This document shows positions 9,584 through 18,780 of a stretch of 64,000 nt of DNA, piece after piece; position 1 is the stretch's first letter; the number at the start of each line of letters is the position of its first letter. The position numbers and the translations under genes are program-made. Source of the DNA: Phallus indusiatus. Taxonomy: Eukaryota > Basidiomycota > Agaricomycetes > Phallales > Phallaceae. Where the stretch lies: NCBI GenBank assembly GCA_027605045.1, contig JAQFWX010000024.1, positions 124,001 through 188,000 on the forward strand, written 5' to 3'. The notes beneath the pieces were generated by a model. That model was not told the origin of the DNA. It searched no databases and saw only the letters and a list, made by a program, of their open reading frames with translations.

Positions 9584-9588
9584 GCAGC
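9584..9588. repeat. Target-site duplication, left (GCAGC)
   Basis: GCAGC abuts the 5' LTR and is repeated at 18776-18780 after the 3' LTR. The empty site survives at about 28800 (TTGGCAGCTTAG), which confirms a 5-bp duplication and integration into a duplicated intergenic block. Confidence 0.9.
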
Positions 9589-9908
9589 TGTAACGGATCC
9601 ACCGTATGCGGTGGATTGAGTATATGCCACTTGGGCATATGCAGAGGGCTTCGCCCTCTGCAGTAATTACTATTAGTACTTCTAATAATAGAGGCGCTTA
9701 ACGCCTCTGGCTCGCCGTGACGCGGCGAGCCATTATGTAATAACTGTACATTAGTAGTAGTTACGCGCGTGCTGATTCAGCACGCGCATTTTGTTTTTAC
9801 ACCATCATAATACAGCACCCTTGGTCTGTTATATTGGTGTGAGGACTACAGCGTGATAAAACTTGTGTACCGTACGCGGTACACTATAAAAAGTAACGAA
9901 GCGTTACA
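9589..9908 (+). repeat. 5' LTR
   Basis: 320 bp with TGTAACG...CGTTACA ends. It contains at least eight short palindromes: 9597-9616 (8-bp arms), 9622-9640 (7), 9641-9661 (9), then AGAGGCG/CGCCTCT, GGCTCGCCG/CGGCGAGCC, GCGCGTGCTG/CAGCACGCGC, GTGTACCG/CGGTACAC and GTAACG/CGTTAC. A TATAAAA motif lies near 9885. Confidence 0.95.
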
Positions 9909-9993
9909 TCTTTTTTAACACCAAAGGCGTTAAAAACAACCCGCCGCTGTATTAAGCAAGCGAAATTAACCCTTCCTATTACAGGAGGATTCA

Positions 9994-12461
9994 ATGGCTC
10001 CTACTACCAGGAGTCAGAGTGCACCAGATCGTGGTACACCTGATTCCAATCAGCCTGACCCACCCGGGCCAGTGCAAACCGAAAATCCCGACCCGTCTAG
10101 GGAAGGAACCCTCGAAGGAGAGTCATCCACATGGGAGAGAGTGGATGCATCAACACAAAATCCCACTCGTCCTGCGTCGCAGACGATGGAACATCAGCCC
10201 CAACTCGCTGATGAAGAAGATGAGGACGTAAAGTCCGTAGCATCTGGTCGCTCCAGACTTAGCGTCAGGAGCGACAGGTCCATCCGAAGGGACGAGACGA
10301 TGAACGCTGTTCACGCATCGTTACTCGATGGCGTGAGGAACGGGAATATGTCCCCGTCAGAACTGCAGAGACTAGCTCGATTAATCGAGAATGTCAACGC
10401 AGGAGTTGAAAACCCCGAGCCAGAGCCTGTTACCACGGGCTTTGACAGGGACCAAGTCAGGACAACAGACTTGTCTCCTGAAGCAGAGCCTGCACGAGCA
10501 CGCTCTGACAAAGGAAAAAGCAGAGCGGTAGACCCGCCTGCACCAGGTACGGGATCTACTCGTCCTAGACCAGCAGGGCCGACGAGTCGCCTTGCCTATC
10601 AATTCACAAACCCAGCCCCACAAGCTAGGTTTGCTACACCGACGGGACCGACATATGCCAGTCCGTCACCAGCGACAGCTGGTAATTCCCAATCCCCTGA
10701 GCCTGCACCAACAGGCACCAGACAACGTTCCCAGAACGTTACCCCAGGACCGAGTACGCGTCCTGATAGACCTCCTACTCAAGGAGCTACAGCATATACA
10801 GCTCCTAGAAACCCCGGCCCCGAAATAGAGGCTGGCAGAGAAACAGTGAGACAAATGCACCGTTTCACAAGACAACCGCCTCACGAGTCTGACGCGGTTG
10901 GTGACTATATCGATACCGAGATAGCCACGCGACTGGTGAACCAGTCGCGAAATGGAGCACCCCACGAGAGGATGCTGAAGTGGTCGCCCAAGCTGCCCTC
11001 GAATACCAGAGGATAGCAAGGCTACTCTCCGACAGAGCAATCCGTACGCATGCACGGGCTGTGGAGACGGCCACTAACGCGCTCGAGGAAGCTGTAGCAG
11101 GCTCTCTCGAGACTGACACTCCCAACGAGCAGCAAATGCGGATCATCCAAGATAGGATCCGCATCGCGAGGGACGCGCGTATGAACGCGGTCCGCCATGC
11201 TCGTGTGCTTGAAGGTGGCTATAATGCCATCACTGGCGATAGGATCCCATCGCCAGACCCAGCCACAAGCTCAAGTCGTCCAGACGACAGAGCATCACCC
11301 CTGGCAGACAACTGCCAAGGCAAAGTGCCGAGCCCAATGGGCAGAGGCAAGCATCTGCTAACCCAGCAGAAGCACCACGTATCGATCCATATGATGGATA
11401 CGCTCGTCGACCACAGTATGGCGAGGATCTCCGCGCCACACCGTTCGATGAGGAACGTGTTGAAAGGTTTGACCCTTTCAACGACGACGCCCCAGTACTT
11501 GAGGGCGTCATAGCCATGGTTCAAGAAGCCCTGATTGCAAACAGGGATATGATGCCAGGCAACTCGCCCCTTGCGAAAGCAGGAGCGAAGATAGGGCTCC
11601 CGCCCACATATAGCGGCTCGTCCAGAGCCGAGGACTTCGACAACTTTGTGTCGGGTCTGTTACGCTGGCTACGCGTAAACCACCTGCTTGGAGAAGTCAG
11701 CCAAGCAGAGCAACTCTCCTTTCTAGGCATGCGCCTAGAAGGGTTGGCACAAGAGTGGTTCACCCAGAACGTGGAACGAGGTACTCGTCCCATGCATGAG
11801 TGGACCCTAGTCCCCGCTACGGAGACTACACGAACGATTCCTCCCACCCCACTCGAGAAGTGAGGTGGCGATCCAGTTCGAACGCGAACGGCAAGGATCG
11901 CACTCTGTACACGAATACATGAGTGCGTTACTCACGCTAGCCAACAGACTAGCGCACCCTCCTGATGATTATACATTCAGGAGGAGGTTCCTTGATGGGC
12001 TGAACCACAGCCTCGCCGCTGAAGTAGCATTCAGAGGCGGTAGTCCTGAGCAGATGTCTGCTAAGGAACTTCTTGCACTCGCCATCCAAGTAGAGGAGGC
12101 GTTCAAGAAGCGGAGGTCGATAACGGCCTCCCAAGGAAGCACTACCCGTCCAACGGGTAGTAGTGGCAGTAGTGGTAGTGGCAGCAGCAGCAGCCACACC
12201 AACTTGGCCAGACAAGCGCATTCAAACAATATGCGCTTGAACCAGAGGAACCAAGGTCCCTCTGCGCGTCCTCATGAGACGCGAACTAATGGCAATTCCC
12301 CATTGGGGAATCGCCCTCGAGCTCATCAAGCTCGAGAAATCATAACTCGCAGCCCGCTAGGACTGCCCCAACTAGTACGAACAATCGCACTAGCACTACC
12401 CCTCCCACGTGTTTCAACTGTGGGCAGGTGGGACATTACAGAAATGCGTGCCCCAGACTGA
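9994..12461 (+). pseudogene. gag: Chromovirus gag, interrupted frame
   Basis: Gag encodes the retrotransposon's structural particle protein. Coding begins at the ATG at 9994, just after a purine-rich AGGAGG. It runs through frames covering 9994-11016, 10980-11513, 11516-11863 and 11865-12461, and enters the protease frame. The N-terminal third is Pro/Thr/Arg-rich. The part near 11550-12120 is a typical Ty3 capsid region (a W-rich segment, then HEYM and RRRFLDGL motifs). A CX2CX4HX4C zinc knuckle for RNA binding lies at 12410-12451. Frame changes map to runs of four C at 10960-10963, 11298-11301, 11812-11815 and 12298-12301. Three look like a C5-to-C4 loss and the one at 11812 like a gain. Either recent mutations or consensus errors in a repeat explain this. 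Confidence 0.85.
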
Positions 12462-13387
12462 GACAGGTACGAGCCAATGTGGGTCGTATCGAAGAGGTTG
12501 AAGAGACCTCTGGCGAGACATCGAACGATGCCCCGCAGGAGAACGTGGAAGACCCCACAGCTGAACAAGCCGTGGAGGAAGAGGTGGCCCAAGACGAGCC
12601 CACCAACGACCCCGTCGAGGACGACGAGGGCATCCAATACCAATGGGACGATGATGACAATGGTCCCAGTGTATACATGCTCCTCACAATTGGTGACGAG
12701 TATGAGGAGCGCAGACTGCACTTCGCGGTCCACAAGTCATCGCCATTGGATGACAATGAGTCCTCGCTCGCTACGAGCAAGGAACCACTCTATGACCATA
12801 CGGCTAGAGTGAGCTCTCGTGCCCCAACACGAGACAGAAACGCATCGAGACCCATTGAGGGTTTCTGGCCAGTCAATGGCCAATTGGCCCACTGCCTAGT
12901 CGACAGTGGATGCCAGGGGATGATCATGTCCCCTCATTTCTCTCTTGCCACCGGGGCAAGAACCTTCAAGCTCGACAAACCTGTCGTGCTGCAGCTGGCC
13001 GTTAAGGGCAGCAAGTCTTCCATCCAGTATGGAACGTACACCCGAATCCAATTCGGAGGTATCGATGTCCAAGAGTACTTTGACATCGTCAACATCGATC
13101 ACTATGATGTGATCATTGGCGTCCCATTCCTGAGACGCTACAACATCTGCCTGGATTTCAGCAGAGGTACAATCACCCGCGACGGCGAGGTGATTGACAC
13201 CAATCACCATGTGATTGGACACGCTCCTGAAACAGGAGCGATGGTGCTAGCCAGCACCCAACATTCCAGCTCCTCCGTCCCTGAGATGACGGAAGAGAAT
13301 ATCCCAGCACTCATCGAGTACTGGAAGAACAAGTACAGTGACCTGTTCGGTCCTGTCCCTTCCCGACTTCCCCATTTCGGGAAGTGA
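12428..13387 (+). CDS. Gag C-terminus and retroviral-type aspartic protease
   Basis: This frame starts inside the zinc knuckle (GHYRNACP), continues through an acidic linker of about 100 residues rich in Glu and Asp, and then holds a Ty3-type protease. The active-site triad Asp-Ser-Gly is in LVDSGCQG near 12900, and the conserved DVIIGVPFLRRYN strand near 13110-13145 is present. The protease cuts the Gag-Pol polyprotein during particle maturation. The frame ends at 13387, four codons after a C4 run (13370-13373) where a one-base loss explains the shift into the reverse transcriptase frame. The start listed is only the frame opening, since in an intact element this is an internal part of a polyprotein. 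Confidence 0.85.
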   Translation: MGHYRNACPRLRQVRANVGRIEEVEETSGETSNDAPQENVEDPTAEQAVEEEVAQDEPTNDPVEDDEGIQYQWDDDDNGPSVYMLLTIGDEYEERRLHFAVHKSSPLDDNESSLATSKEPLYDHTARVSSRAPTRDRNASRPIEGFWPVNGQLAHCLVDSGCQGMIMSPHFSLATGARTFKLDKPVVLQLAVKGSKSSIQYGTYTRIQFGGIDVQEYFDIVNIDHYDVIIGVPFLRRYNICLDFSRGTITRDGEVIDTNHHVIGHAPETGAMVLASTQHSSSSVPEMTEENIPALIEYWKNKYSDLFGPVPSRLPHFGK

Positions 13388-15153
13388 ATCACCAGATTCC
13401 TCTTATTGAGCCCAATAAGAAGATCCGGTACCACCTTCCCAGGTGTCCGGATGCGCTCAAAGCGCTACTCGCTGAAAAGATTCAGCGATACGTAGCTGCA
13501 GGCTGGTGGGAACCAACTGTAGCTACACAGGCAATCCCTATGCTTTGCCTGCAGAAACGAGCCGTAGTCCTAGCACTACGGACCGTGTTCGATCTGCGCC
13601 TGCAGAACGAAAACACAGAGAAGGACGTAACGCCCTTCCCTGACCAGGAAACCATCCGCCAGAACGTGGCGAGACACAAATACAGATCAAAAATTGATCT
13701 GACTGAGGCGTACGAGCAAGTACGCATAGTCCCAGAGGACGTCCACAAGACGACCTTTGCCACCATCTATGGCACTTTCAAGAGCCATGTCATGCAGCAA
13801 GGAGACTGTAATGCCCCATCGACGTTTCAACGTCTGATGACTCACATATTTAGGGACTGCATCGGTCGTTCGACGGATGCATACATAGACGACGTGTTCG
13901 TCTATTCAAACACAATAGATCTGCATCAGCAGCATCTAGAGAATGCCTTCTCGCGTCTGCGAGAAGCACAACTTTACCTAAGTAGTCGTAAAGTTGATTT
14001 GTACTCTAAGCGACTGGAGTGCTTAGGCCACATCATCGACGATGATGGCATCCATCCCGATCACGAGAAGATGGACAAAATACGTGAGTGGAGAACTCCA
14101 CGCACGTATAACGATGTCCAGAAATTTCTGGGCCTCGTACAATACGTTGCGGCATACCTACCAGGGGTAGCCGCATACACTACACCACTATCAGGGTGTA
14201 CGTACAACAACAGACCGTTCGTATGGACGCCGTTGTTGAACAAGTGCTTTGATTCAATCAAAGCACTCACGCGAAAGGCTCCTATCTTGAAGCCTATTAA
14301 CGTGGACGACCCAGATCCAATTTGGGTCGTAACCGACGGCTCTAAATGTGGCGTCGGTGCCTATTATGGGCAAGGGCCTACATGGCAAACGTGTAGGCCA
14401 GCAGGGTTTCTCTCGAAGAAGTTCACCCCTGCTCAATACAACTACCGCACCCATGAGCATGAGCTCATCGCGGTACTTGAAGCCTTCCTCAAGTGGGAAG
14501 ACAAACTACTAGGGCGTAGATTCACCCTAGTAACGGACAACGAGGCCATGGTCCACTTCAAGACCCAGCCTCGCATGTCACCGCGTCAAGCACGGTGGTA
14601 TGAATACCTGTCTCGTTTTGACTACGAGACGATTCATGTCAAGGGCGTCACTAACAATGTCGCCGATGGCCTCTCTCGTTATTACGAAGAGGACACTCCG
14701 GATGAGGTTCACCCTCCGGAGGTATACGTCAATGCTGACGTTAGACTTGATCCCGAAGGGGATCATCTTCCCATCGAAAGAAGGGATGAAGTGAGAGTGA
14801 ACGTTATTACACGTTCACGAGTACGAGAGGAACCTCGAGTTGAAGGTCCCTCAAATACTACACCTTCTGATATTACAGAAGCGCAATCCGATGAGGATAT
14901 ACTTGCTCTAAGTGCAGAGCAAGACAGCAAGCTTCTTAAAGCCAAAATTGAGGGCTTTGCTGAATTCACCTCGCTGATACAGCAAGGTTATCACAAGGAC
15001 CCAGTATTTAAGCTGGTTCTTGCCAACCCGAACGCTCACAAGGCGTTTGGAATTAAAAATCAACTGATCTTTACCAAGAATCAGTTCCTCCGCGATGTAT
15101 TATGCGTCCCCATAACGCATTTTACAAGGGGAGGAGGATCACTGAGATTATAA
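13384..15153 (+). CDS. pol: Reverse transcriptase and RNase H
   Basis: The frame encodes the polymerase that copies element RNA into DNA. It has fingers and palm with FDLRLQN, SKIDLTEAYEQV (first catalytic Asp, near 13690) and AYIDDVFVYS (YIDD box, near 13890), then the thumb and connection (LGHIID...FLGLVQY). RNase H follows from about 14310 with the acidic residues in VVTDGSKCG, HEHELIAVLEA and TLVTDNEAM, ending near VADGLSRY. All catalytic acids that I can identify are present. The frame opens with a GTG codon that is not a real start. It closes at 15153 just past the C4 run at 15108-15111, where the integrase frame takes over. Confidence 0.95.
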   Translation: MNHQIPLIEPNKKIRYHLPRCPDALKALLAEKIQRYVAAGWWEPTVATQAIPMLCLQKRAVVLALRTVFDLRLQNENTEKDVTPFPDQETIRQNVARHKYRSKIDLTEAYEQVRIVPEDVHKTTFATIYGTFKSHVMQQGDCNAPSTFQRLMTHIFRDCIGRSTDAYIDDVFVYSNTIDLHQQHLENAFSRLREAQLYLSSRKVDLYSKRLECLGHIIDDDGIHPDHEKMDKIREWRTPRTYNDVQKFLGLVQYVAAYLPGVAAYTTPLSGCTYNNRPFVWTPLLNKCFDSIKALTRKAPILKPINVDDPDPIWVVTDGSKCGVGAYYGQGPTWQTCRPAGFLSKKFTPAQYNYRTHEHELIAVLEAFLKWEDKLLGRRFTLVTDNEAMVHFKTQPRMSPRQARWYEYLSRFDYETIHVKGVTNNVADGLSRYYEEDTPDEVHPPEVYVNADVRLDPEGDHLPIERRDEVRVNVITRSRVREEPRVEGPSNTTPSDITEAQSDEDILALSAEQDSKLLKAKIEGFAEFTSLIQQGYHKDPVFKLVLANPNAHKAFGIKNQLIFTKNQFLRDVLCVPITHFTRGGGSLRL

Positions 15154-16508
15154 TCAGTGAGGCCCACCAAATTGTTGGGCACTTCGGACGTTACAAAACG
15201 TCTCAGTACGTTAGACAAGCGTACTGGTGGAAATCGATGATTGAAGACATCGATACGTTCTGCAGATCCTGCGGAACGTGCCAGACCAATAAAGGGGAGA
15301 ATAATCACCCCAGTGGTCTGTTAAAACAACTCCCGATTCCCAATAGACCTTGGGAATCGATTGGAATGGACTTCGTCGGTCCATTACCCGTTTCAAACGG
15401 CCACGACTTCCTATTCGTCGTGATTGACAGACTGACCTCTATGGTTCGTCTGATGCCAACCACCACCAAGCTGACCGCCAAGGGCACAGCCTGGTTATAC
15501 CTCAGTGAAGTCGTAAGACTCCACGGTGTCCCTGACTCAATCGTGAGTGACAGGGATGCACGATTCACTGCCAAGTTCTGGCAGGAACTGCAACGCCTAA
15601 TGGGGACACGATTGCTCATGTCCACGGCGTTCCATCCGCAAACGGATGGATCTACCGAGCGAGCCAATCGCTCGATTGGCCAAATACTTCGTTCCGTGAT
15701 ACAGAACGATCAAAAAGATTGGGCCGAAAGGATCCCAATGGTGGAGTTTGCTATTAATAGCAGCACCAGCGAAACCACTGGTTTCGCGCCGTTTGAACTC
15801 AATTACGGCTATCTTCCCAGTTTGGGAAGGAAAATTGAGACGAACACCAAATTCAAAGGTGTTCAACACTTTGCTCAACAGGCAAAGTGGAATCTCATGA
15901 TAGCGCATGACGCTATCATAGCCAGTCGCGTTAAACAGGCTCACTACGCGAACAACTCACGGCGCGATGCACCGGAGTATAAAGAGGGTGACCTCGTCTA
16001 TCTGTCGACGAGGAACCTCAACCTCCCCAAGGGGAGAGTTAAGAAGTTGATCCCGCGTTATGTGGGACCATACAAAATATTGTCCGCTAAAGACAATATC
16101 ACAGTGAAACTTGAGCTCTCTGAGGAGCTCAAGCAACGTCGCATAAATCCCGTATTTCACGTGGATTTGATTAAACCTCACATCGCTAATGACGACGAGA
16201 GGTTTCCACGCCGCGATACACTCACGGCGTATGATTTTGGACAGCCAGACGATGCTGAATGGCACGTCGAGGAACTCCTAGCTCATCGCTGGAGTGGAAC
16301 TCGCGAGAAAGATCTCGAGTTCCTAGTCCAGTGGACCCTTGGGGATACCACTTGGGAACCTTACAGTAACTGTAAGGACTTGCAAGCTCTAGACGAGTAC
16401 TTGCAATTACGAGGCGTAAACGAGCCTCGGCAGCTGCCACGACTATCCAATCACGGAGAGTCGCGGACCAGCAACAAGCGCCCAGATCCCACTCGGGGAT
16501 CTGCTTGA
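15102..16508 (+). CDS. Integrase with C-terminal chromodomain
   Basis: Integrase inserts the cDNA into host DNA. The N-terminal zinc-binding His/Cys arrangement is visible (HQIVGH and CRSCGTCQ). The catalytic core has Asp in MDFVGP, Asp in VSDRDARF and Glu in DGSTERANR, so D, D and E are intact. A C-terminal domain with FHVDLIKP leads into a chromodomain near 16250-16420 (WHVEELLAHRW ... FLVQW ... TTWEP), which in chromoviruses is known to direct integration to modified histones. The frame overlaps the previous one by 52 bp because of the presumed base loss at 15108-15111. The ATG at 15102 is therefore probably internal to the polyprotein. Confidence 0.95.
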   Translation: MRPHNAFYKGRRITEIIISEAHQIVGHFGRYKTSQYVRQAYWWKSMIEDIDTFCRSCGTCQTNKGENNHPSGLLKQLPIPNRPWESIGMDFVGPLPVSNGHDFLFVVIDRLTSMVRLMPTTTKLTAKGTAWLYLSEVVRLHGVPDSIVSDRDARFTAKFWQELQRLMGTRLLMSTAFHPQTDGSTERANRSIGQILRSVIQNDQKDWAERIPMVEFAINSSTSETTGFAPFELNYGYLPSLGRKIETNTKFKGVQHFAQQAKWNLMIAHDAIIASRVKQAHYANNSRRDAPEYKEGDLVYLSTRNLNLPKGRVKKLIPRYVGPYKILSAKDNITVKLELSEELKQRRINPVFHVDLIKPHIANDDERFPRRDTLTAYDFGQPDDAEWHVEELLAHRWSGTREKDLEFLVQWTLGDTTWEPYSNCKDLQALDEYLQLRGVNEPRQLPRLSNHGESRTSNKRPDPTRGSA

Positions 16509-16565
16509 AGATCCCACCCACAGGGATCCACTGGCACTTCACTGCTACGCGGTGAGGTAATTTTC

Positions 16566-16600
16566 ACTTGGGCGCTCCATGAGGCCGCCCAAGTATATAA
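16566..16600 (+). promoter_or_regulatory. Hairpin plus TATA box ahead of the accessory ORFs
   Basis: TATATAA at 16594-16600 lies 43 bp upstream of the ATG at 16643. Directly before it is a perfect 9-bp-arm inverted repeat (16566-16594, arms ACTTGGGCG/CGCCCAAGT). The position suggests that the downstream ORFs are transcribed separately from gag-pol. This is an inference from position only. Confidence 0.45.
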
Positions 16601-16642
16601 CCCAAAAGTCCGTTCACGGTCTTTTCTCCCTCAACACCCCCC

Positions 16643-17784
16643 ATGCCTGACAGCAAGGGAAAGCAACGCGAACGATCACGCTCGCGGTCGCCTACGCCGC
16701 AACCTGTTAGTAGGTTCAAAAAGCAGAGGCTCAACTGGCCCTGCAAAGGTCCGAATGGACCTTAGACGCGATGGACGGATGCATATCCGTCTATCATAAC
16801 AATGATAGTTGCACTGCGTGCAACGACTTTGCCAGTCACCTGGCAGGCCCCGCTGGCAGCGGGGCAATCATCCTTGACCATGATATGGTCAAGCAGGCCG
16901 TCTACAAGGCCTTTCCCTTCATAAGGAGGGAGTACTATCATCTAGACGAACGTCTAGAAGAAGCTGAAAAGGACGTCAAGTCCTTGACAGACCACCTCGA
17001 CGATGCGAATCGTCGTATCTGCGAGCTGAAAGCTCGCATTGCTGAACTTGAACGTTCAGCGTCGACGGCAGGCCCGTCGACTACCCCATCGACCTCCAAA
17101 AAGCGGTCGAGAGACCAGGCCGATAAAGCGCCTGAACCATCCCAGACAGCCCCTTTGCCTGATATTTTCAACGACATGTCGTCTGACGACGACATGGAAG
17201 ACATAGTCGATGATAACGACTATGATGACGACGCCTCCATCGCGTCGTCCACCAAACGCAAACCTCAGCGTACCTACGCTGATGCAACCAAGGCATCGGG
17301 CTCTCGCGATGCTGCCCCGGTTTCTCCAAGGAAACCCTCTGGTCCGTATCCACGGACCAAGCCAGGATGGGACTCCAACCGGGACCCATGGCCCTTCTTC
17401 GTCAAGGGCTTCGACCCCACTGTTAGTGGGGATCACTCTCTGGTGCCTGGCACCCCCAATCCTACTGCATGGTATAACACCTGCAGCCTCGACGAACCAT
17501 TGTTCGTCGAGATTGGAACCCGGGTTTGGACCGACCCCCCGGTGTTCACGTACCCCGATGACAGGGGGGTTCACATGCGTATTTCATACGCATGGACTCG
17601 CTGGCGCAGATCCATGAAGGAGCGTCGCCTGGCGAGAAAGACCGCCAAGCTTGAAGCTATGGAGGCTGCCGCCAACCGTCCATCGGTGGTGTCTATCTCG
17701 GGAGAACTCATACACCCCGAGATCAAGTATTTAATCAATACTTGGAATGCGGACCCTAACCAGGTCCTCCTTACATCCGACTAA
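16643..17784 (+). CDS. Chromovirus accessory ORF 1, unknown function
   Basis: This frame sits between integrase and the 3' LTR, where Ty3 elements may carry an extra gene. The ATG at 16643 follows the TATA box and opens a basic RS-rich stretch (RERSRSRSPTP). After an A5 run at 16718-16722 the coding frame moves by one base and continues to 17784, with an in-frame ATG at 16771. The second part has a CTAC pair, a heptad-patterned coiled coil at about 16930-17055, a KKRSR nuclear-localisation-like motif, an acidic Asp-rich patch near 17180-17230, and an aromatic-rich domain (17380-17640). There is no signal peptide or membrane segment, so it is not an envelope gene. I do not recognise the family. 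A nuclear, nucleic-acid-associated role is only a guess from composition. Confidence 0.6.
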
Positions 17785-18398
17785 TGTCGGATGGATCATT
17801 AAACCCTCAAGATGTTGAGGTGTTCGCATGGCTCAAACGAGTCACACGTACTCGTGAAGTACGTGCCAAGTTCCTCGAGAAGGCGGCTGAGTGCCTCCTC
17901 GACCCCGCACTTACTGTGTGGGAAGAAGTTCTCGGTGGTAAGGGTAATTCCTCCACCCACCTGCCTTCCACGCTTATGGAAGGCTACACTCGTTCCTTCG
18001 AGTGCAAATCCCCCTCCTCCATTACCATAGAGGAGGTGATTCGCTCCATGCATGCCAATGGAGCGACGACAAGACGCGTCACTGAGGTGATCGCGCCCCT
18101 TCTCCAACGATACGCCAATGGAGAAGATGTCAATCGCATCGCGCATGACTATCGCGTGCGCCGTGGACTGGATCGTCCAACAAAAAAGGCGCGTACGACT
18201 CAGTCGTCCGCCCCCGCCGTCCATGCGTCGGCTTCACCTGCCAGCATCGTGGCAGGCCAGCCTAACAAGGTCTACTCCCCGTCCGTCCCAATTCAGATGA
18301 CGGACGAGGAATTGTTAAGGCCCCCTGAGGACCTTGACGCGCCGCATCCGAGTGCCTCGGAGAGCATGGAGATTGACTACAGCAATCCCTCTGACTGA
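17784..18398 (+). CDS. Chromovirus accessory ORF 2, unknown function
   Basis: A 204-residue frame whose ATG overlaps the stop of the previous ORF as TAATG (17782-17786). It could be translated by termination-reinitiation. It could equally be the same protein continued after a one-base loss near 17763, because sensible codons precede the ATG in this frame (GPPYIRLM). The protein begins with a compact helical-looking part (VEVFAWLKRV ... FLEKAAECLL). It then has a segment resembling a small helical DNA-binding fold (EEVIRSMHANGATTRRV ... VNRIAHDYRVRR), and a low-complexity Pro/Ser tail. No database family comes to mind. It ends 63 bp before the 3' LTR. Confidence 0.55.
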   Translation: MSDGSLNPQDVEVFAWLKRVTRTREVRAKFLEKAAECLLDPALTVWEEVLGGKGNSSTHLPSTLMEGYTRSFECKSPSSITIEEVIRSMHANGATTRRVTEVIAPLLQRYANGEDVNRIAHDYRVRRGLDRPTKKARTTQSSAPAVHASASPASIVAGQPNKVYSPSVPIQMTDEELLRPPEDLDAPHPSASESMEIDYSNPSD

Positions 18399-18450
18399 TT
18401 ACAGTCAGACGCCTCCTCTTCGCGATCCCATGACTTGGAGTCCAAGTCAC

Positions 18451-18460
18451 AAGGGGAGGA
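18451..18460 (+). other. Polypurine tract
   Basis: AAGGGGAGGA abuts the first base of the 3' LTR, the expected plus-strand primer for reverse transcription. Confidence 0.85.
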
Positions 18461-18775
18461 TGTAACGGATCCACCGTATGCGGTGGATTGAGTATATGCC
18501 ACTTGGGCATATGCAGAGGGCCCTCTGCAGTAATTACTATTAGTACTTCTAATAATAGAGGCGCTTAACGCCTCTGGCTCGCCGTGACGCGGCGAGCCAT
18601 TATGTAATAACTGTACATTAGTAGTAGTTACGCGCGTGCTGATTCAGCACGCGCATTTTGTTTTTACACCATCATAATACAGCACCCTTGGTCTGTTATA
18701 TTGGTGTGAGGACTACAGCGTGATAAAACTTGTGTACCGTACGCGGTACACTATAAAAAGTAACGAAGCGTTACA
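18461..18775 (+). repeat. 3' LTR
   Basis: 315 bp, identical by eye to the 5' LTR except that CTTCG is missing from the hairpin at 9641-9661, leaving the palindrome GCAGAGGGCCCTCTGC. Confidence 0.95.
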
Positions 18776-18780
18776 GCAGC
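18776..18780. repeat. Target-site duplication, right (GCAGC)
   Basis: Direct copy of 9584-9588 flanking the element. Confidence 0.9.

Follow-up and report, generated by a model that had tools for sequence, protein, structure and literature searches.

The 64,000-nucleotide window analyzed here (Phallus indusiatus, contig JAQFWX010000024.1, positions 124,001 to 188,000) contains, at window positions 9589-18775, a young copy of a multi-copy, 9.2 kb Ty3-type long terminal repeat (LTR) retrotransposon that is crowded with short perfect hairpins from end to end. The best explanation for this organization is probably selection, acting along the entire transcript of the element, for folding into dense local stem-loops. 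Selection for RNA structure is well supported by shuffle controls, by predicted folding strength and by the fate of stems on a tree of genomic copies.

A census of perfect inverted repeats with arms of at least 8 bp and loops of up to 15 nt returned 75 instances in the element, as opposed to 13 in the remaining 54.8 kb of the window. An initial annotation of this DNA had reported more than fifty such repeats and nothing similar nearby, and the pattern it described is real and stronger than it claimed: all 12 of the hairpins that it cited are present, some of them with arms one base longer (for instance 10 bp at 10928-10949 and 9 bp at 18431-18449). With the 3' LTR left out, the element holds 198, 116, 70 and 23 repeats with arms of at least 6, 7, 8 and 9 bp, respectively, as compared with means of 26.7, 6.5, 1.8 and 0.45 and maxima of 42, 15, 5 and 2 in 60 dinucleotide shuffles. 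Synonymous-codon shuffles (100 for each of eight open reading frame (ORF) pieces) were exceeded at their maximum by all eight pieces at arms of at least 7 or at least 8 bp. The piece encoding reverse transcriptase (RT) and RNase H presents 13 arms of at least 8 bp (shuffle mean 0.49, maximum 3), and the 3' ORF piece presents 14 (mean 0.73, maximum 4). Two gag pieces surpass the shuffle maximum at one of the two cut-offs only, with 9994-11016 tying it at arms of at least 8 bp (2 found, maximum 2) and 11516-11863 tying it at arms of at least 7 bp (2 found, maximum 2).

Once overlaps are removed, 123 hairpins with arms of at least 7 bp and loops of up to 40 nt remain, separated by a median gap of 33.5 nt and spread over all ORFs as well as the LTR and the spacers. 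Their effective loops are most frequently of 3 and 4 nt (20 and 24 hairpins), and 107 of the 123 fall between 3 and 13 nt. The excess is restricted to loops of up to about 20 nt, and long-range inverted repeats (arms of at least 8 bp, loops of 41-300 nt) show none, with 25 instances versus 25.3 in three shuffles. Up to 8 bp, over half of the stems run at least one base pair further, and past 8 bp one third of them do (23 of 70), which is close to chance; the longest sense helix, allowing G-U pairs and loops of 3-60 nt, spans 12 bp. No special tetraloops are enriched on either strand, the sense strand presenting one GNRA and one UNCG among 24 effective tetraloops.

Folding predictions on 300-nt windows, each compared with 20 dinucleotide-preserving shuffles, indicated that the sense sequence is 40.8% more stable than its shuffles (mean z of -7.46), with z below -2 in 58 of 58 windows, and codon-preserving shuffles of four ORFs still left an excess of 32.7-40.5%. 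The shuffle controls that the initial annotation had put forward as a check, based on both dinucleotides and codons, hence lose hairpin density as well as folding. By the same measure the excess is 29.2% in the RNA phage MS2 (22 of 22 windows with z below -2), 16.3% in a sister Ty3 family of the same genome (13.2% for its pol region under codon shuffles), 5.5 and 6.0% in two copia-type loci, 2.3% in the flank and 1.6% in a 1.5-kb piece from another Ty3 element. The Escherichia coli ribosomal RNAs, whose structure consists of longer-range pairing, score 4.4% (16S) and 2.8% (23S) on this local measure. In 150-nt windows the antisense excess amounts to 33.9% versus 44.1% for the sense strand, and lies near it because the stems are Watson-Crick. 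The paired fraction under span-limited folding is little different between the element and its shuffles (0.63 versus 0.57); it is stability that differs.

The hairpins are a property of the family. At least 40 genomic places match the RT region (40 of 133 candidates scored), and all 30 RT-region loci examined, the window copy among them, present 5.9-7.8 arms of at least 8 bp per kb. Eight loci with other integrases, copia-type by their domains, present 0.3-0.9 per kb, and the excess is absent from the 1.5-kb fragment of another Ty3 element. The sister family (L069-L074), whose RT protein is 76% identical and which aligns with the element through protease, RT-RNase H and integrase, shows an excess of shorter stems: copy L069 has 56 and 22 stems with arms of 6 and 7 bp, with 14.5 and 3.7 expected, and arms of at least 8 bp are nearly lacking (2 in 6 kb). 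The initial annotation had proposed a comparison with other chromoviruses. The copia-type loci, which lack the hairpins, speak in its favour, and of Ty3-type elements the comparison covered the 1.5-kb fragment, also without them, and the sister family, which is intermediate. No DNA of relatives from other organisms was found in viral contig or genome contig collections; among the best 120 of 572 protein matches, identities range from 44 to 64%, and the named relatives are all Agaricomycetes.

The main features of the element, in window coordinates, are as follows.

9584-9588: left target-site duplication, GCAGC, same as 18776-18780.
9589-9908 (+): 5' LTR, 320 bp, with termini TGTAACG...CGTTACA and 7 non-overlapping hairpins with arms of at least 7 bp.
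9640-9662 (+): LTR hairpin with 10-bp arms and a loop of 3; its 3' LTR counterpart, 18512-18529, is shorter by 5 bases.
9765-9787 (+): LTR hairpin with 11-bp arms and a loop of 1.
9994-11016 (+): gag-region ORF, assigned by position, no Pfam match; 10 non-overlapping hairpins with arms of at least 7 bp.
12428-13387 (+): gag/protease frame, RVP_2; the extended open frame starts at 12290 and carries a CCHC knuckle (motif identified by eye).
13384-15153 (+): RT-RNase H frame, with 24 non-overlapping hairpins with arms of at least 7 bp within 13384-15101.
14243-14267 (+): longest perfect hairpin, with 12-bp arms and a loop of 1.
15102-16508 (+): integrase, H2C2 and SH3_Tf2-1, with rve and chromodomain slightly under cut-off; 24 hairpins with arms of at least 7 bp.
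16077-16099 (+): hairpin with an A-T to G-C double change at pair 16079/16097.
16771-17784 (+): extra ORF 3' of integrase, 337 amino acids, no Pfam match.
17784-18398 (+): second extra ORF, 204 amino acids, overlapping the stop of the first, no Pfam match.
18461-18775 (+): 3' LTR, 315 bp.
18776-18780: right target-site duplication, GCAGC.

The assignment to the Ty3 type (Metaviridae) follows the domain order protease, RT, RNase H, integrase (Pfam RVP_2, RVT_1, RT_RNaseH and Integrase_H2C2), and the element is bounded by TG...CA termini and a 5-bp target-site duplication. Its two LTRs are the same except for one 5-nt indel, which lies in the loop region of the 10-bp hairpin at 9640-9662. A chromodomain (PF00385) at the expected position, the integrase C-terminus, scores 24.8 bits against a cut-off of 25.1, and the lineage is probably chromoviral. 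The gag and pol frames of the window copy are interrupted at several points, and the RT region of other copies lies in open frames reaching 2020 codons; the family has been active in the recent past. The G+C content of the element is 0.53, compared with 0.43-0.44 in the remainder of the window. The 337-amino acid ORF carries 20.7 hairpins (arms of at least 7 bp) per kb, a density exceeded only by the LTR, and no homologue was detected for it at E<=0.001 among 2172 candidates; across both extra ORFs (16771-18398), 12 aligned 3' ends hold 9 variable sites, insufficient for a coding test. Inspection by eye of the sequence directly after the 5' LTR (9909-9950) revealed no TGG-type primer-binding site, and a hairpin (9912-9936) occupies the usual position of that site instead, so priming of the element may be unusual. 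In self-priming Ty3-type elements of the Tf1-like kind, the 5' end of the RNA is complementary to the primer-binding site.

Two arrangements among the copies suggest exchange and insertion. Copies L028, L033 and L037 have a diverged block in common (about 11884-12400), which suggests that they recombined with an otherwise unobserved lineage, and at locus L060 a family LTR in reverse orientation stands next to the RT sequence of another family copy, which suggests a nested insertion.

The evolution of the stems was analyzed by site-by-site parsimony on a tree of 30 copies (region 11884-16653; locus L009, which is the window copy itself, left out), rooted with the sister family; this superseded polarization by the sister family alone. 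Terminal-branch changes are confined to single copies and largely neutral, and those on internal branches have passed through active copies. Counts were made without changes near the ends (2 of 213 internal, 10 of 467 terminal) and without sites with an ambiguous root. Among 211 internal changes, stems with arms of at least 7 bp were gained 24 times and lost 26 times, and among 457 terminal changes they were gained 30 times and lost 81 times (6.6% and 17.7%), a contrast in gain-to-loss ratio with p=0.012. Random mutation is expected to yield 5-7% gains and 21% losses, and the terminal branches lie close to that. Internal branches thus hold the number of stems and private changes decay near-randomly, which speaks for the first of the two explanations offered in the initial annotation, selection for a structured RNA; its second, template switching, is disfavoured, as discussed below.

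The kind of loss differs as well. Losses to A-C or other non-pairs are rarer on internal branches (10 of 211 versus 60 of 457; p=0.0006), and losses to G-U pairs are undiminished there (16 of 211 versus 21 of 457). The ratio of G-U to A-C losses is 16:9 on internal and 21:56 on terminal branches (p=0.0016), and at codon position 3 alone it is 12:3 versus 11:30 (p=0.0006). Fifteen whole-region variants were run, with arm cut-offs of 6, 7 and 8 bp applied to the base analysis, with collapsed nodes, without the diverged block and without two copy sets, and the G-U to A-C contrast stayed below p=0.05 in every one. Under the preferred explanation, selection would act mainly through synonymous choices, under protein constraint, and would produce closely spaced local stem-loops, with stems of about 7-8 bp and loops mostly of 3-13 nt.

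Compensatory change, which the initial annotation had named as a further check, is apparent between families and weak within the family. Of 45 pairs changed on both sides relative to the sister family, 18 form Watson-Crick pairs again, as opposed to 62 of 281 in slid controls (p=0.014). Within the family, 7 pairs occur in two Watson-Crick forms in which both bases differ, versus 1-3 in slid controls; with copies that are 97-100% alike, this signal is weak. Pair 16079/16097 is A-T in 25 and G-C in 6 of 31 aligned rows, and parsimony assigns the double change to three branches, two internal and one terminal. In the diverged block of L028, stems occur at partly new positions; one of them involves an Arg-Arg codon pair in which three bases have changed with the amino acids kept (frame determined by eye), and its opposite arm brings Ile-Val and Thr-Ala changes. 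The conservation of hairpin positions between the two families (runs of at least 4 pairs are retained by the sister in 19 of 52 stems) was set aside, as sequence identity could suffice to produce it. The LTR hairpins with arms of at least 7 bp hold 11 variable positions across 30 LTRs, with both G-T and A-C among them, and these are too few for use.

Several observations weigh against selection on the sense RNA. In the tree, the G-U effect (arms of at least 7 bp) is concentrated in the second half of the region (p=0.001; first half, p=0.47), the test on A-C loss rates gives p=0.057 in one node-collapsed variant, and within internal branches alone G-U-type and A-C-type transitions in arms do not differ significantly (16 of 95 versus 9 of 95; p=0.20). 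Among terminal changes, the G-U-type ones (C>T and A>G) fall in arms less often (24 of 192) than the A-C-type ones (G>A and T>C; 56 of 219; p=0.001), a strand asymmetry to which the G-U to A-C contrast owes a good part of its size. Mismatches present in at least three copies show a G-U to A-C ratio of 19:21 versus 25:50 for those in fewer copies, in the same direction as the tree, with p=0.16. Polymorphism is not reduced in arms (0.113, compared with 0.127 in loops and 0.100 in the rest), which is what a predominance of private decay among the variants would give. Present-day stems point the other way: internal mismatches in the window copy are A-C rather than G-T on the sense strand by 30:7 (p=0.007 versus slides keeping codon phase), the same tendency, short of significance, appears in six other copies, and allowing wobble pairs gives longer helices on the antisense than on the sense strand (up to 15 versus 12 bp, with one control shuffle each). 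For pol, a large share of the listed A-C pairs fall on codon position 1 or 2 and are invariant among the copies, and codon position does not fully account for the A-C excess.

The statement in the initial annotation that several near-perfect pairs differ only by G-T is not confirmed by these counts, and the idea that G-T would outnumber A-C in present-day stems as a sign of selection on sense RNA was rejected, the opposite being seen. With overlaps removed and a stricter score, the A-C to G-T ratio is 11:4 in the element (p=0.43) and 7:0 in copy L075 (p=0.049). MS2 itself presents no clear G-T excess by such counts (13:10), which indicates that the measure has little power. The evidence on strand hence conflicts, and the sense RNA is the likely target of selection.

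What the structure would do for the element can be addressed from the shape of the stems. A general property, be it resistance to annealing or compaction, fits better than a set of specific signals, because the stems are many, short and interchangeable, none exceeds 12 bp and no loop motif was seen. A self-structured RNA would anneal poorly to antisense RNA, to small RNAs and to the products of host RNA-dependent RNA polymerase (RdRP), and we infer that this poor pairing is the gain, with compaction for packaging as the main alternative benefit. Stems of this length would remain too short for Dicer, whose substrates are longer. Several genes of the Argonaute and RdRP types are present in the host genome, with 20 exon matches to Piwi and 33 to RdRP; some of these genes occur as equal-scoring pairs on different contigs, corresponding to either two haplotypes or duplications. 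A more specific proposal, which we advance tentatively, is that the stems form an armour of interchangeable 7-8-bp hairpins, in which selection would act on density and not on individual hairpins, conferring resistance to the antisense and small RNAs of a host with RNA interference genes while stems stay below Dicer length, and that this armour was strengthened from about 6-7 to about 8 bp after the split from the sister family.

In a variant whose odds overlap those of the preferred explanation, and which is a less probable but credible reading, the same selected RNA structure would benefit the element through compaction and packaging, with Gag binding many stem-loops. The coat proteins of RNA phages bind many stem-loops, and the CCHC knuckle in the gag frame, a folding strength exceeding that of MS2 and the distribution of stems over LTR, spacers and ORFs are all in line with such a role. 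The effective tetraloops described above show no common loop motif, and the structure is lacking in the copia-type loci and in the fragment of another Ty3 element, which are presumably packaged as well. For this last reason we lean towards an anti-silencing shield over packaging.

Template switching is disfavoured and appears unlikely as the source of the stems. Fold-back during reverse transcription would copy one arm onto the other, perfecting imperfect palindromes with no selection on structure, and stems that are perfectly Watson-Crick with local loops accord with it. The balance of gains and losses on internal branches could also arise from biased correction, changes within 12 nt of each other are slightly commoner there (38 among 211 versus 60 among 457; p=0.10), and template switching in DNA replication has been reported (PMC8794818) to create and maintain RNA hairpins. 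Such rewriting should be visible in the arms, but their divergence from the sister family is not raised (0.337 in 5' arms and 0.287 in 3' arms, p=0.13 for the difference, versus 0.307 in the rest) and their codon-position profile is ordinary, with position 3 dominant. Hairpins with at least two changes in one arm on a single branch are as frequent on internal as on terminal branches (4 of 211 versus 10 of 457; p=1), and no change clusters rewriting a whole arm from its partner were seen on the 30-copy tree. Correction restores Watson-Crick pairs and would not, on its own, keep G-U and remove A-C on the sense strand at codon position 3, an objection that fails if correction acts only in plus-strand DNA synthesis.

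Selection on the minus strand, acting on hairpins in single-stranded minus-strand complementary DNA or in antisense RNA, is similarly improbable. It draws on the mismatches within present-day stems, where a sense A-C is a G-T on the minus strand (30:7), and on the longer wobble-allowed helices of the antisense strand. It is at odds with the tree, in which A-C-type losses are the rarer ones on internal branches (9 of 211 versus 16 of 211), and at codon position 3 the 3 A-C losses versus 12 to G-U are the opposite of what it predicts. Chance palindromes arising from composition, codon usage or amino-acid repeats, to which the higher G+C of the element might point, have next to no probability and were ruled out by the shuffle tests: shuffles that retain composition and codons lose the signal, loops of 41-300 nt show no excess and hairpins are no sparser in the non-coding LTR.

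With selection for RNA structure as the preferred explanation, the element is best read as the counterpart, among retrotransposons, of the genome-scale ordered RNA structure (GORS) described in persistent positive-strand RNA viruses. It shares with them a genome-wide excess of folding over sequence-order-shuffled controls that includes coding regions. According to PMC3950689, GORS is called from a folding-energy difference of 3%, and native hepatitis C virus and murine norovirus segments reach 10.9% and 9.0%; the 40.8% predicted here lies above that threshold genome-wide, and at 41%, obtained with a different folding program, with short perfect stems and in an LTR retrotransposon, the element departs from the viral cases. 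Like MS2 (Leviviricetes), it is crowded with local structure, but it presents 7.9 perfect arms of at least 8 bp per kb, compared with 0.8 in the phage, and replicates in an unrelated manner. Yeast Ty3 is also a Ty3-type LTR element, and its RNA structure has been mapped by probing, with a well-folded core of about 19.4% of the genomic RNA (PMC11381356), whereas the low z scores in 58 of 58 windows of the present element stem from prediction only. The hairpins attributed to template switching in DNA replication (PMC8794818) are likewise short and perfect; unlike them, those of the element come without an excess of arms with multiple changes, and with ordinary, codon-constrained arm divergence. 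The sister family shares the excess of short stems and differs in nearly lacking arms of at least 8 bp and in its weaker folding. Literature searches of titles and abstracts, with subscription papers mostly outside their reach, returned no published retrotransposon of such organization.

If this explanation is correct, the element would be the first LTR retrotransposon to emerge from these searches in which selection on folding has shaped the entire RNA, along with the conserved enzyme genes that it encodes, with a predicted folding stronger than that of the RNA phage MS2. The presence of copies of differing age and of a less structured sister family in one genome makes protection from silencing and packaging testable against each other. 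Synonymous sites in such elements would then be far from neutral, and the dating of these elements by divergence would be affected.

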